Below the pieces are notes generated by a model that saw only the letters and a list, made by a program, of their open reading frames with translations, made no database searches and was not told the origin of the DNA. The position numbers and the translations under genes are program-made. 19,956 nucleotides of DNA from Planctomycetota bacterium. Lineage in GTDB: Bacteria; Planctomycetota; Phycisphaerae; WQYP01. Shown here piece by piece: positions 1-4,212 of this stretch (the stretch's first letter is position 1; each line of letters starts with the position of its first letter). Location: assembly GCA_021838985.1 (NCBI GenBank), contig JAKCCC010000003.1:1-19956 (forward strand), written 5' to 3'.

Positions 1-1312
1 TATAAGTGAAAATGTTGTCACCATTTTCGCCCACATAAGGGGAAGTTTCCCACGTCACGTGATCATCGCCAAAGCCCACATTCTGGCCGTCGCCGGCATG
101 GTTGCCGGAATTGTAAATGTACGGGCCATAGGTGTTGGCGGTGGGCAGCGTGGTGGTGATACGCTCAAACGCGCCGCTGCCGGCCCCGTCACCATCGGTG
201 GCGTTGCCGTCGCGCGGCGCCATGTCGCTGACCAGCGGAACCTCCGTAGTGGCGCCGTCGGTGCACCACCACCGGCCGACGGTCGGGCCAACCAAATCGT
301 TTTCCCAAGGCCAAGGAAAGGCGACAGAGTAGCTCAGGCCCGCGCCGAGGTTACCGCTGGATGATCCGCCGGTGCTGTAAGGGCCTCCGCTCCACGGAGC
401 TCCGCCGGCCGGAACGTTCTCGAAGTTGCCGCCGTAAATGAGCTGGGCCCCGTTTTGGAAGTATTCCAGCGCCGGTCCCACCGCGAGCGGATCCGACGGG
501 CAGATGAAGCTCGCCGGCGTGTCGTAGCCCTGGAGGACCAAAATCCACATGGAGAAATCCGGTGAGTTGTCATTATTCCAGGGGGCAACCCCCGCGGTGC
601 CGTTGTACATTTCCTGCACCACCTCCTGCGCCGTGGTCTCGGTACCGCTGTACGTTTCGGGGGTGTAGTAGGAGTTCATGTACCAATTCCATGAGCTCCA
701 TGGGACGGAGTCAATGCCGGCCGGGAACGTACCGTCGTTCGATTGAGCATACGTCACCATGGACTGGATGATCCCGCGGATGTTGGCCATACAGACGGCG
801 CGGTTGGCCAGTTCCCGGGCTTTAGCCAATGCTGGTAGAAGTATAGATATCAATATAGCTATTATTGATATCACGACCAGCAGCTCGATCAGCGTAAACG
901 CCGCCACCGCTTTGAAGCGGGCCTTCCACGACCGGAAACCGCACGGGTTCAATGCCATCTGGAAGCCCGCCAGCACTCCCAGCGCTTCGCCGATGGAAAG
1001 GACCCCGATGGCGAATGCCGTAAGCCCCACGTTCAAAATGGCGCCCATCCCTGCAATCACTTTCTCCGCGGCCAGCACCACGCTCTCGGCCAATACGCTG
1101 GCCAGGGCAAGCAGGGAGGACCATAACGATCGAAGACCTGCCACGGTGAGATTGATACCTTCTTGCGCTTTCATGGGAAACTCCTGTAACAAATGGACCA
1201 CAACCTTTACACCAGCCATCGAGGGCGACGGCTCTACACGGCGCGACGACGCCACGGAGGGCGACGGCGCCACAAGGGGACCGAAGAAAGACGTTGAACT
1301 ATTGCGTGCCAT
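1..1312 (-). CDS. Type II secretion/pseudopilin-like protein with prepilin N-terminal methylation motif (C-terminus cut by window edge)
   Basis: The frame is open from an ATG at 1312 to the left edge, so the last residues are missing. From that start the prepilin segment FTLIELLVVI begins at residue 139, followed by a hydrophobic helix and LLPALAKARELANRAVCMANIRG, the usual planctomycete pseudopilin start. The C-terminal part carries HAGDGQNVGFGDDHVTW, a variant of the H-X9-DG signature of this family. Such proteins are cleaved by prepilin peptidase and assemble into envelope pseudopili or related structures. The start is uncertain: 1312 has a perfect AAGGAGGT five bases upstream, 1174 has AGGAG, and 958 would give a conventional 20-residue leader but has no clear ribosome site. 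The residue before the cleavage point is Ala, not the usual Gly. The upstream 138 residues contain a Ser/Pro/Arg-rich part and then about 70 hydrophobic, helix-prone residues. Confidence 0.85.
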   Translation of the reverse strand, partial: MARNSSTSFFGPLVAPSPSVASSRRVEPSPSMAGVKVVVHLLQEFPMKAQEGINLTVAGLRSLWSSLLALASVLAESVVLAAEKVIAGMGAILNVGLTAFAIGVLSIGEALGVLAGFQMALNPCGFRSWKARFKAVAAFTLIELLVVISIIAILISILLPALAKARELANRAVCMANIRGIIQSMVTYAQSNDGTFPAGIDSVPWSSWNWYMNSYYTPETYSGTETTAQEVVQEMYNGTAGVAPWNNDNSPDFSMWILVLQGYDTPASFICPSDPLAVGPALEYFQNGAQLIYGGNFENVPAGGAPWSGGPYSTGGSSSGNLGAGLSYSVAFPWPWENDLVGPTVGRWWCTDGATTEVPLVSDMAPRDGNATDGDGAGSGAFERITTTLPTANTYGPYIYNSGNHAGDGQNVGFGDDHVTWETSPYVGENGDNIFTY

Positions 1313-1317
1313 AGGGC

Positions 1318-1325
1318 ACCTCCTT
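1318..1325 (-). promoter_or_regulatory. Strong Shine-Dalgarno deciding the pseudopilin start
   Basis: The minus strand reads AAGGAGGT, a full anti-16S complement, five bases before ATG 1312. This is the best ribosome site of the three possible starts and is in frame with the pilin motif. It therefore supports the long leader. Confidence 0.6.
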
Positions 1326-1350
1326 ATCATGCGCCCCGCAAGAGCTGGCC

Positions 1351-1368
1351 CCGGGTCACACGACCCGG
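1351..1368. other. 7-bp perfect hairpin upstream of the pseudopilin gene
   Basis: CCGGGTC, a loop of ACAC and GACCCGG form a perfect stem about 25 bases upstream of the pseudopilin ribosome site. No T-run follows on either strand, so it is not an obvious intrinsic terminator. It may be a 5' leader structure or an operator-like dyad. Confidence 0.4.
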
Positions 1369-1410
1369 TGTAAGCCCGCATCCACTGGGGCGAAACAAAT
1401 ACCGTTTCCT

Positions 1411-1437
1411 CACGCGAAGCCGCGAAGGCCGCGAAAA
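1411..1437 (-). repeat. Nonanucleotide dispersed repeat, CTTCGCGGC type
   Basis: On the minus strand this reads as three imperfect 9-base units (TTTTCGCGG, CCTTCGCGG, CTTCGCGTG). It is in opposite orientation to the related CTTCGTGTY units at 1572-1593 that hold the IS element. Repeats of this type are widely dispersed in intergenic DNA of several bacterial phyla, as I recall. Confidence 0.55.
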
Positions 1438-1531
1438 CACCCTTTCCATGATCCCTTAACATCCTTGCCGAGTTCACTCCGCTGCGACCATTGTCCCGGG
1501 GTTCTCTAACTCGTCTTTCGCGCTCTCCGCG

Positions 1532-1556
1532 GCGCGGTTTAGTCGCCACAGCGACC
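1532..1556 (-). repeat. GTCGCC/GGCGAC palindromic dispersed repeat, copy 1
   Basis: The plus strand reads GCGCGGTTTAGTCGCCA followed by CAGCGACC, an imperfect dyad. The same GCGCGGTTTAGTCG start and GCGACC end recur at 4528-4553. Inverted and related copies lie at 4595-4614 and 11694-11713. Confidence 0.6.
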
Positions 1557-1645
1557 GTGATCCATCGGTCGCCTTCGTGTTCTTCGTGTCCTTGTATGTT
1601 GGAAAAGTATGCGTAATTCACAACCAGCTTTCGTTGAGGTATCTT

Positions 1646-1830
1646 CCGCTGTGCGTCCGAAGCGGAGGTGCAGCCGGAGCGTAGGACGCACAGCGGCGCG
1701 TGCTCGATTGTGTTACGGCGGTGTCCCTGCCGACGCAGAGTGTGAGCCACGTCGCTGTGCCGGGCCAAGATCCGAACGGTCCACTGAGTCGCCTGCCTCC
1801 CAGGCGTGCTCGCATTTGCAAGGACGGGTT
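1646..1830 (+). ncRNA. Candidate IS110 bridge RNA
   Basis: The 5' noncoding part of the IS folds into three modules by eye. First is a perfect 13-bp stem-loop (1646-1658 with 1684-1696). Second is an internal loop closed by ACGGCG 1715-1720 and CGCTGT 1753-1758 (one GU), capped by hairpin CTGC-cgac-GCAG (1727-1738). Third is a loop closed by GATCCG 1769-1774 and CGGGTT 1825-1830 (two GU), capped by CGCCTG-cctcc-CAGGCG (1790-1806). A 5' stem-loop followed by a target-binding and then a donor-binding loop, about 180 bases long and ending near the recombinase gene, is the known order in IS110/IS621 bridge RNAs. Short matches to target and donor sit at the expected loop positions. No expression evidence is available; the exact ends are guessed. 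Confidence 0.6.
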
Positions 1831-2817
1831 ATGACCCCATCACACGCTCCCACCACCGCTTTCGCCGGACTCGATGTCGGCAAGGCCTTCTGCCAACTGG
1901 CCATCCTTCTGCCGGAGGGGACCACGGTGCAACGACCGATCCCCACCACCCCCGACGGGTTCGCCCAGATGGTCGAACTATGCCAAAAGCACCAGGTCGC
2001 GCTGGTGGTCATGGAATGCACCGGTCGGCTAGAAATCCCCCCGGCGGTGGAATTGTGGCACGCCGGCATTCCGGTCTCCATCATCAGCCCCAGGCAATCC
2101 CATGCTTTCGCCAAAGCCTTGGGCCGCGCAGCCAAAACCGATCGGTTAGACGCCGACCTTCTGGCCCGCTTCGCCCAGCGGATTCGCCCCAATCCCACGG
2201 AAAAACTCTCCGAATATCATCTGGAACTGCGGGAATGGGCGACCCGCCGCCGCCAACTCATGGGGATGCTGATCCAGGAGAAAAATCGCCTGGCCCAGGC
2301 CAGGGCCCAGAGCCTCCAGGAAAATATTCAACGCCACCTCAGGCTCCTGACCCAACAGCTCGACGCCGTGGACCAACAGATCCATGACCACCTCCAACGA
2401 GATCCGCAACTCCACGCGGCCGTCGCACGGCTCGAATCCGTCCCCGGCATCTCCCGTATCGCTGCGACGCAACTGATCGTGGCGCTGCCGGAACTGGGCA
2501 CCCTGACCCGCCGCACCGTGGCCAGCCTGGCTGGCTTAGCCCCGATGGCCCACGACTCCGGCACCCTGGCAGGCCCGCGAGCCATTCGCGGGGGACGCGC
2601 CAACGCCCGCACCGCACTCTTTATGCCCGCCCTGTGCGCCACCCGTTTTAACCCGGTTATCAAGGCTATGTACACGCGCTTACGTGCCGCCGGCCAGCGA
2701 CCTATCGTCGCCTTGATCGCCTGTATGAGGAAGCTTTTAATCATACTTAACAGTATGTTGAAACAACATAAAACCTGGGACCAATTTATCCTGAAAAGTA
2801 CGTCCCCATCAGCTTGA
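1831..2817 (+). CDS. IS110-family transposase (DEDD/Ser recombinase)
   Basis: The protein of 328 residues has the two IS110 domains. An N-terminal RuvC-like DEDD_Tnp_IS110 domain has D15 in GLDVGK, E62 in VVMECTG, and D104 and D107 in KTDRLDADLLA. After a coiled-coil linker (about 140-200), a Transposase_20 domain contains SVPGISRIAATQLIVALPE and ASLAGLAPMAHDSGT, where S243 is the expected catalytic serine. All five catalytic positions are present, so the enzyme looks intact. It should excise and insert its own element, guided by the upstream structured RNA. The start at 1831 was chosen because AAGGAC lies shortly upstream and family proteins begin just before the first Asp. A longer in-frame start at 1609 would translate the RNA region and has no family similarity. 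Confidence 0.95.
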   Translation: MTPSHAPTTAFAGLDVGKAFCQLAILLPEGTTVQRPIPTTPDGFAQMVELCQKHQVALVVMECTGRLEIPPAVELWHAGIPVSIISPRQSHAFAKALGRAAKTDRLDADLLARFAQRIRPNPTEKLSEYHLELREWATRRRQLMGMLIQEKNRLAQARAQSLQENIQRHLRLLTQQLDAVDQQIHDHLQRDPQLHAAVARLESVPGISRIAATQLIVALPELGTLTRRTVASLAGLAPMAHDSGTLAGPRAIRGGRANARTALFMPALCATRFNPVIKAMYTRLRAAGQRPIVALIACMRKLLIILNSMLKQHKTWDQFILKSTSPSA

Positions 2818-2829
2818 CTTTTAACACGG

Positions 2830-4212
2830 TCACTTTGTGGTGAAATCTCCCGCCGCGCCCGGCGCGGGACCGATGGATTCCCCATCCTGCCAAGTCACAG
2901 GCAACACGCGGTGCCAGACGCCGGGTTGGTTTCTGGATTCCTTCAGAGCGGCGAGTGGGGCCTCGGTCTCCATGGGGGCGACTCTCCGACCGGCTAGGGA
3001 AACCTCGTGTCCGCCTGCCTGTCCCCCTGTCGCCGTGTCGGCAGGTGCGTCTCCCGCTGCATCCGCGTGTCCGTTGCCCCCCAACCCGTCGCTTACGCTC
3101 CGGGCTATGAACTCTTGCCCGCTTTCTTCCGCTCTTCGCCTGGATTTCGCCCACCGCGGCGACCCATCATCCTTCCGGCTGCCCGCCATCAGGGCGAGCA
3201 GCATTTCCATGGCGACAACGCCCATTTCACGGATCGGCTGGCGGACCGTCGCCAGCGTGGGGACCAACAGCCTGCAGATTTCTCCTCCGTCAAACCCGAC
3301 GGCGCTGATGTCGCCGGGGATGTGCAGCCCAAGGGAGCGAATGAGGCGACAACCCTCTGCCGCAAACGCGTCGTTGCCAAAAAAGACGGCGGTCGGGGGA
3401 TTTGGGCGGCCGAGCATGCTCCTGACGGCGCTGTCGATTTCGCCTCGCGTGCCCATCCCCAGGGTATCCCGCACACCCTTGACGAGGGAGCGGTCGAGGG
3501 GCACTGCGGCGTCGGCCATGGCGTCGCGCAGACCATCCAGGCGAGCGTGGGACGTGTCGGCACCGAGGTACGCCAAGAAGCCGATCCGCCGGTGCCCGCG
3601 CTCAATCAGTTTTTGCCCCGCGAGGTAGCCGCCCCGGTAGTTATCAGCCACTACGCTGGGGATTTCCAAGTCGTGCAGCGTCTCGTCGACAAGCACGAGG
3701 GGGTACCGGGCCGCCCTGAGTCCGTAGAGTGCTTCCGCAAAACGTTTGCGGTGAACGGAAATAATAACGGCGCCTCGCACGGAGGTCATGGGCAAGTTGC
3801 GAATCATCTCCAGATCCGCGGCCAGGCCGGCGTCGGTATCGTAGATCTGCACTCGCGAGCCCACTTGCAGCGCCGCCGCCTTTGCACCCCGAGCGGCCTC
3901 GGCCCATAGCCCACCCGCAAAGTTTACTACGGCAATCTGGACCGGCGTCGGTGTGGGATCGGCGGTGCCGGTTCCTAGGCTGCGGAGGTACACGCCCTTA
4001 CCTGGCCGGCGCTCCAATTTGCCCTCGGCAATCAGCACGTCCACCGCCCGGCGGGCCACCATGCGGTTGACTTTTTCACTCCGCGCCAAGTCGTATTCCG
4101 AAGTGATCAATTCGCCGGGCCGGGCCTTGCCGTCTTCAAGTTGTCGGCGCAGCTTGGCCGCCAGCAGCTCGACCACCGGGACACCGTTTCTGAGCACTCG
4201 CGCTCGGCCCAT
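2830..4212 (-). CDS. GntR-type transcriptional regulator with LacI-like ligand-binding domain
   Basis: The 460-residue protein has a GntR winged helix (about residues 13-77, ELLAAKLRRQLEDGKARPGE and LIAEGKLERRPGKGVYL) fused to a periplasmic-binding-protein-like sensor of the LacI/GalR type (about 91-345). Sensor hallmarks are VVADNYRGGYLAGQKL, RRIGFLAY, AVFFGNDAFAAEG, GDISAVGFDGG and LATVRQPIREMG. This matches AraR-like regulators, which usually respond to sugars; the ligand here is unknown. The start at 4212 has GAGG nine bases upstream and lies downstream of a near-perfect promoter. The TTG at 4269 is excluded because it is the -35 element. Residues 346-460 form a low-complexity tail that matches no family. 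The tail includes translated dispersed repeats and ends with a TGA (2830-2832) inside the IS110 right end, so the C-terminus is probably altered. Confidence 0.9.
   Translation of the reverse strand: MGRARVLRNGVPVVELLAAKLRRQLEDGKARPGELITSEYDLARSEKVNRMVARRAVDVLIAEGKLERRPGKGVYLRSLGTGTADPTPTPVQIAVVNFAGGLWAEAARGAKAAALQVGSRVQIYDTDAGLAADLEMIRNLPMTSVRGAVIISVHRKRFAEALYGLRAARYPLVLVDETLHDLEIPSVVADNYRGGYLAGQKLIERGHRRIGFLAYLGADTSHARLDGLRDAMADAAVPLDRSLVKGVRDTLGMGTRGEIDSAVRSMLGRPNPPTAVFFGNDAFAAEGCRLIRSLGLHIPGDISAVGFDGGEICRLLVPTLATVRQPIREMGVVAMEMLLALMAGSRKDDGSPRWAKSRRRAEESGQEFIARSVSDGLGGNGHADAAGDAPADTATGGQAGGHEVSLAGRRVAPMETEAPLAALKESRNQPGVWHRVLPVTWQDGESIGPAPGAAGDFTTK
3085..3110 (+). repeat. Dispersed repeat, copy within regulator 3' end
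   Basis: A 26-base sequence (core GTCGCTTACGCTCCGGGCTA) matches 4652-4677 at 24 of 26 positions. Read on the minus strand in the regulator frame it encodes the peptide IARSVSDG. It marks the point where the protein stops resembling its family. Confidence 0.7.

Follow-up and report, generated by a model that had tools for sequence, protein, structure and literature searches.

An insertion sequence in the window (the whole stretch of 19,956 bases analysed here) carries a structured non-coding region directly upstream of its recombinase gene. The question raised by this locus is whether that region encodes a guide RNA belonging to the element itself, as a preliminary description of the sequence had inferred. 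Covariation of stems, a covariance-model match and loops that read as guides support the inference at the level of sequence, and the region very probably encodes the bridge (guide) RNA of an element of the IS110 group. The borders of the element, the conservation of the structure, the pairing in a conserved register and the family of the recombinase can each be read from sequence comparison.

Element, insertion site and recombinase

The borders of the element are set by an unoccupied copy of its target repeat within the same genome (G000:C316, L002), in which both flanks are joined as TTCGTGTC-CT-TTGTGGTG. This copy differs from the flanks of the element at 7 of 150 bases on the left and 5 of 140 on the right; it is another copy of the repeat and not the same locus from another strain. 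The core CT, the target as just written and the element span of 1593-2834 all follow from this empty copy. The element so delimited has a non-coding left end of 238 bases and a right end of 17, with the guide-RNA region lying upstream of the gene (Table 1).

The target is a dispersed extragenic repeat, TTCGTGTC-CT-TTGTGGTGAAATC. A 23-base form of this repeat, with up to 3 mismatches, is present at 7 places in the element's own genome, against 0 for a reversed control. Window positions 1500-1592 and 2833-2900 group with L002, L004, L005, L007 and L008 into a composite extragenic repeat family that hosts the element and whose motifs include TTCGCGCTCTTCGCGG and GTCGCCACGGCGAC. A literature search for five short strings of the target repeat gave two papers, both on unrelated subjects as judged by their titles.

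Compared with solved structures, the recombinase matches ISCro4 best (9t56, E 4.2e-37) and also matches IS621 (8wt6, E 6.8e-35). Its residues D15, E62, D104, D107 and S243 align with D11, E60, D102, D105 and S241 of IS621, as these residues are named in the available part of PMC11208158; the offset of two in the numbering of the IS621 chain in this alignment is our own reading. A cluster of at least 14 protein sequences (P0001), 99% identical to the recombinase, is present among the 8000 best-word-sharing candidates that were scored. The longest contig of that cluster, at 1210 bases, is about the length of the element, and the cluster may hold further near-identical copies. Two other proteins among these candidates, P0002 and P0003, are 66% identical to the recombinase.

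Table 1. Coordinates of the element, its target and donor sites, and the predicted parts of its bridge RNA in the window.
Feature	Position	Strand	Basis or detail
Left target TCGTGTC plus core CT	1584..1592	+	comparison with unoccupied repeat copy
CT core copies	left 1591-1592, right 2833-2834	+	comparison with unoccupied repeat copy
IS110-group insertion sequence	1593..2834	+	1242 bp, CT core counted once; borders from unoccupied repeat copy
-10-like TATGTT, half of putative circle-junction promoter	1595..1600	+	17-nt spacer to TTGA
5' stem-loop	1646..1696	+	13-bp perfect stem 1646-1658 / 1684-1696, 25-nt loop; not in unconstrained optimum
Two-loop body of bridge RNA	1688..1831	+	covariance-model match, 68.6 bits, E 4.3e-14
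Target-binding loop	1699..1751	+	closing stem CGTG-CTC / GAG-C-CACG, 1699-1705 / 1744-1751, one unpaired base
Left target guide UUGUGUU	1708..1714	+	7/7 pairs with left target (2 G-U); next letters AC unpaired with CT
Capping hairpin, target-binding loop	1717..1731	+	stem 1717-1721 / 1727-1731, one G-U pair
Right target guide CGCAGAG	1734..1740	+	7/7 pairs with CTTTGTG (2 G-U)
Donor-binding loop	1769..1830	+	closing stem GATCC / GGGTT, 1769-1773 / 1826-1830
Left donor guide ACGGUC(CA)	1776..1783	+	positions 1-6 pair with right end ACGGTC; 7-8 unpaired
Capping hairpin, donor-binding loop	1786..1811	+	stem 1786-1795 / 1801-1811; one G-U, 1-nt bulge
Right donor guide AUUUGCAAG	1814..1822	+	7/7 with CTTGTAT, IS621 discontiguous register; two U skipped, one G-T
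DEDD recombinase, 328 aa	1831..2817	+	Pfam DEDD_Tnp_IS110 (PF01548) and Transposase_20 (PF02371)
-35-like TTGACT, other half of putative promoter	2814..2819	+	overlaps recombinase stop codon
Short right end, holding left donor ACGGTCA plus core CT	2818..2834	+	17 bases
Core CT plus right target (CTTTGTG)	2833..2839	+	comparison with unoccupied repeat copy

Structure read from the window alone

The preliminary description had proposed a perfect 13-bp stem-loop followed by two closed internal loops, each capped by a perfect hairpin, the whole ending at the base before the recombinase ATG. The stem-loop is as described, and the last closing base is indeed position 1830. Both closed and capped loops lie where they had been placed, but their hairpins are not perfect, as they include G-U pairs and a 1-nt bulge. 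The second closing stem, that of the donor loop, has 5 pairs, 2 of them G-U.

Folding of 1591-1831 provides modest evidence for this arrangement (z = -2.04, equalled by 8 of 200 shuffles), and folding of 1646-1830 gives z = -2.34, with 3 of 200 shuffles as good. In the unconstrained optimum of 1606-1838 the capping hairpins (5/5 and 10/10 pairs) and the second closing stem (5/5) are complete, the first closing stem retains 3 of its 7 pairs, and the 5' stem retains 0 of 13. Positions 1688-1696, within the 3' strand of the 5' stem, pair instead with 1752-1760, and forcing the 5' stem costs 4.7 kcal/mol (-96.5 versus -101.2). No match at Rfam gathering scores occurs in the window, just two matches are found below threshold across 1200-3100 (E 0.75 and 4.5), and a tRNA search returned none.

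Single-sequence folding of the region is modest evidence and gives the structure thin support. With z-scores of only -2.0 to -2.3, and with matches to guide sequences common when the register is left free, the arrangement could be a chance structure of G+C-rich sequence combined with chance site matches. It rises above chance because of comparative evidence, namely a covariance model and the covariation of stems among relatives.

Relatives and conservation of the structure

Relatives were collected by searching proteins at three taxonomic levels, with overlapping sets of 28 genomes for the order, 397 for the class and 392 for the phylum, and by one genome-contig scan. These yielded 80 recombinase-matching loci, of which 72 were distinct after removal of 8 duplicate fetches of the same place. 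Both ends were set for 50 of the 72 by an end finder that demanded left ends like CTTGTA or CTCGTA (or the Gluconobacter form), ACAG-like right ends and an ACAG-like anchor in the donor guide; three variants, those of the window, L011 and L053, were added by eye. Because the finder required them, the conserved ends among relatives are partly conserved by construction. The poor fits L105, L101 and L011 were retained. Viral contigs gave 7 stretches matching a pattern, none of them a relative, and a plasmid search by DNA gave one partial match.

A covariance model built from 20 relatives, with the window excluded, has a single match in all 19,956 bases, at 1688-1831 (E 4.3e-14, the E-values of this model being rough). 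The preliminary description had named a better-scoring match of a bridge-RNA model elsewhere in the element as grounds for refutation; this model gives no such match. This window-excluded model is the independent test of the structure. It also matches 15 of the 31 other loci given to it, including 2 of Gluconobacter, and 3 of 3 plasmid elements tried, one of which is annotated as ISEc32 family (E 1e-5).

The stems themselves covary among relatives; the preliminary description had named a lack of such covariation as refuting. An alignment of 21 distinct left ends gives 30 consensus pairs, of which 20 show one or more compensatory changes. Five of the 30 pairs, one of them among the 20, join the left-end CTTGT to the right donor guide ACAAG and are not part of an RNA stem; because this count included those five guide-donor pairs, an analysis of 26 pairs in four RNA stems was used in its place. 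Over the 21 left ends, 86.4% of cells in these stems are paired against 67.6% when shuffled, and in 109 cells, against 37.8, both partners are changed. The stems reach a covariation score of 0.524, compared with 0.192 for shuffled alignments and at most 0.146 for slid controls, which favour the structure because it was derived from the same alignment. Pairs with a double change number 18, a figure that 61 of 500 shuffles also reach. Of the four stems, the one closing the donor loop is weakest (71% paired). In the 5' region, a Watson-Crick stem of 7-17 bp is present in 19 of 20 relatives, and L011 has 4 bp. In 16 of 20 this stem is longer than any found in 30 mononucleotide shuffles; it is no longer than the shuffles in L011, L051, L063 and L064, and exceeds them by one base in L102 and L097.

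Several related loci are incomplete or altered. Three stretches, two of 65 bases and one of 39, in three genomes of one genus (L079, G004:C17:11247-11311; L080, G006:C17:19963-20027; L081, G007:C21:24471-24509), apparently the same locus, are 78-90% identical to 1635-1699 and by eye carry CTTGCATGTTGG about 47 bases upstream, as at the left end. The window-excluded model does not match them, and they are perhaps a solo left-end remnant. A truncated and frame-broken relative of the same family (L038/L048, G006:C108:16229-16862) is 60% identical over residues 148-326, and its right end also bears the ACGG variant. In L074 and L057 (G082) the first 13 bases of the left end, CTTGTATGATTAA, are tandemly doubled; they are single in L108 and L109.

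Guides, targets and donors

The register in which the loops were read as guides was drawn from the alignments of relatives and from the window-excluded covariance model. In this fixed register, with the core positions of the left guides uncounted, the window's element pairs with its target at 14 of 14 positions (four G-U) and with its donor at 13 of 14, and 0 of 1680 CT sites outside 1200-2900 reach either score. The register from relatives is essential because matching in a free register is too weak: across a 240-nt RNA, 18 of 1680 CT sites (1%) equal the target match and 228 of 300 equal the donor match, which is not above chance, and free-register matching was dropped as evidence. The fixed-register controls, the E-value of the window-excluded model and the covariation of stems refute chance structure with chance site matches, which is left with a negligible probability. 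One of 20 foreign targets pairs equally well with the window's guides, because several relatives use the same repeat type.

Pairing between guides and neighbouring DNA is maintained across relatives as the sequences change. For 28 guide types, representing 47 elements, pairing with the own target reaches 342 of 392, whereas none of 20,000 permutations exceeds 306; with the window left out the score is 328 against a permutation maximum of 295. A test of 39 elements in 21 groups gives 259 against a maximum of 232 (0 of 20,000). Eight of the 50 loci with set ends lack the anchor; they were left out of the 39-element test and restored with a second anchor for the 28-group test. Neither test includes the 3 Gluconobacter loci, which have a different type of left end. 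The window for the right guide, 37-39 bases before the donor guide, was chosen after a first look at the data, and the range for the left guide was widened from 24-32 to 22-32 between the 39-element and 47-element tests, with permuted targets scored identically. Pairing of donor guides scores 155 of 168 over 21 types against a permutation maximum of 148, in a test biased in the same way as the conserved ends because the finder required ACAG-like ends and anchor. Individual co-changes agree: ACGG stands in the right end and again in the guide of the window's element, whereas 18 of 20 relatives carry ACAG at the two places, and in L068 and L104 CTC co-occurs with GAG.

These co-changes bear on a further explanation, in which the structure acts at the level of DNA or mRNA, as a binding site for the recombinase or a leader of its gene, and not as a guide. 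Structured leaders directly upstream of genes are common, and the structure here immediately precedes the gene, reaching as far as the start codon. However, from element to element the loops vary in step with target and donor DNA, and the stems covary as RNA pairs. A leader or a fixed binding site is very unlikely, since neither would be expected to produce the co-changes of the guides, and a bridge RNA is the preferred reading.

Six loci in four genomes (L083, L084, L085, L087, L095 and L103) have near-alike left ends with differing left target guides. By eye, the adjoining left target changes along with the guide in L083, L084, L087 and L103, and has one mismatch in L085 and L095. From their sequences this looks like natural re-targeting among close relatives. 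The window's left guide consists entirely of U and G and is compatible with 18 genome sites, against 7 for the reversed pattern, in this one case. The idea of a degenerate guide, with U or G where targets vary, is not supported, as U or G stands at 16 of 26 variable positions and 37 of 58 constant ones.

Core pairing of the left guides

Core pairing is strongly preferred in IS621, according to the part of PMC11208160 that was available (section 8). Such pairing in all four guides is not found in the window's element: both right guides pair with the core CT, and the left target guide (AC) and position 8 of the left donor guide do not. Among 28 left target guides, that of the window alone is unpaired at core C8. 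Position 9 of this guide is unpaired in 14 of 28, the window included, and because this position is so often unpaired in relatives, full core pairing does not define the clade. For the left donor guide, 6 of 21 types, the window's included, lack a pair at position 8, and only the window's lacks one at position 7. Judged by these pairings, either the copy may be slightly decayed, or the core may be read by the right guides alone.

Were the copy partly decayed, the region would be a bridge RNA by descent, made weak or inactive by mutations in the core positions of its left guides. The singular gap at C8, the unpaired positions 7-8 of the left donor guide and the one copy of the element found by protein search of its own genome (69.5% complete) would fit such decay. 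Yet the frame of the recombinase is whole and all five aligned catalytic residues are kept, target guide positions 1-7 and both right guides are fully paired, and the gaps at position 8 and position 9 occur mostly in otherwise well-paired elements. Furthermore, a genome of the same genus contains the right end of a second copy, 97% identical over 112 bases; by eye its right target, CTCTGTG, also suits the window's right guide. On balance, decay of the copy seems unlikely.

The other explanation is held no more firmly: it is a tentative, rather doubtful proposal that CT is read by the right guides only, which would give this bridge RNA a variant pairing rule, and that the element belongs to a group of IS110 elements, half of them specialised on one widespread type of extragenic repeat. 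The repeat type so used might be Y-T-Y-N-G-Y-G..CT-Y-N-G-Y-G-G, in a manner resembling the use of REP by IS621, and this too is offered with considerable doubt. Right targets of the form CT-Y-(C/T/G)-G-Y-G occur in 14 of 28 guide groups versus 18 of 944 CT sites in the window background, a count that is a description and not a test, because the motif was picked post hoc and the groups are related. The unpaired core positions of the left guides are what differs from known bridge RNAs and are a lead only.

Predicted circle junction and proposed mechanism

Joining the two ends of the element would place the TTGACT of the right end 17 bases before the TATGTT of the left, giving a promoter-like TTGACT-17-TATGTT; in the inserted state the place of the -35 on the left side reads CCTTCG. 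Outside Gluconobacter, TTGA with 17-nt spacing is present in 40 of 47 elements with the window included (39 of the 46 others). By subset it is found in 39 of 39 anchored elements, many of which are mutual copies, and in 1 of 8 anchorless ones (L085). The junction -35 is absent from the remaining 7 of 47 and from 3 of 3 Gluconobacter loci.

By analogy with IS621, from which the circle, its transcription, the complex and the strand exchange are all taken, the element would excise as a circle with its ends joined. The RNA transcribed from the junction promoter would then begin at about 1606, take in the 5' stem-loop and the two loops and end near the start of the recombinase gene, and the recombinase would bind this bridge RNA. 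In the first loop, UUGUGUU could pair with the bottom strand of the left target and CGCAGAG with the top strand of the right target; in the second, ACGGUC and AUUUGCAAG could pair with the two strands of the joined ends. Strands would be exchanged at CT by the recombinase.

Comparison with known systems

The locus is a well-supported new example of the mechanism described in 2024 and not a new kind of system. It provides a natural bridge-RNA system whose target, donor, guides and borders are defined from sequence, along with 27 other guide types and their targets. This set of 28 types could be used for testing pairing rules outside IS621, in particular the need for core pairing by the left guide, and it raises the question of why one type of dispersed repeat hosts half of the guide types. 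Bridge RNAs were predicted in 2024 for 85.7% of IS110 elements, as given in section 12 of the portion of PMC11208160 at hand.

ISCro4 (PDB 9t56), the closest of the solved structures, was compared by protein only. The ISEc32-family element on E. coli plasmid NZ_OP331340.1 has a recombinase 38.7% identical to that of the window, and its left end is matched by the covariance model at 27.8 bits, the weakest of the three plasmid matches. IS1111 elements and their seekRNA resemble the present element in that a DEDD recombinase is combined with a guide RNA derived from non-coding sequence, according to the accessible text of PMC11187229. In that same text the IS1111 RNA is usually downstream and accompanied by subterminal inverted repeats, whereas the right end here has 17 bases, and a downstream guide region of the IS1111 type is not found, the covariance model having no match downstream of the gene. 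A long left end and a short right end agree with the IS110 group and differ from IS1111 (PMC11208160, section 12, as excerpted).

The nearest parallel is IS621, for which the comparison draws on the parts of PMC11208160 and PMC11208158 available. Common to both are the DEDD recombinase, an RNA in the long left end, the CT core and the order of 5' stem-loop, target loop and donor loop. In both, the right donor guide reads AU[UU]GC..G, skipping two letters and including a non-canonical pair; both also have a promoter-like sequence at the circle junction and a dispersed extragenic repeat as target (REP for IS621). The two differ in the target itself and in the right target guide, of 7 nt here against 4 for IS621. 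The left guides of IS621 span 9 letters for the target (7 plus CT) and 8 for the donor, whereas both left guides of the window's element are unpaired with the core.
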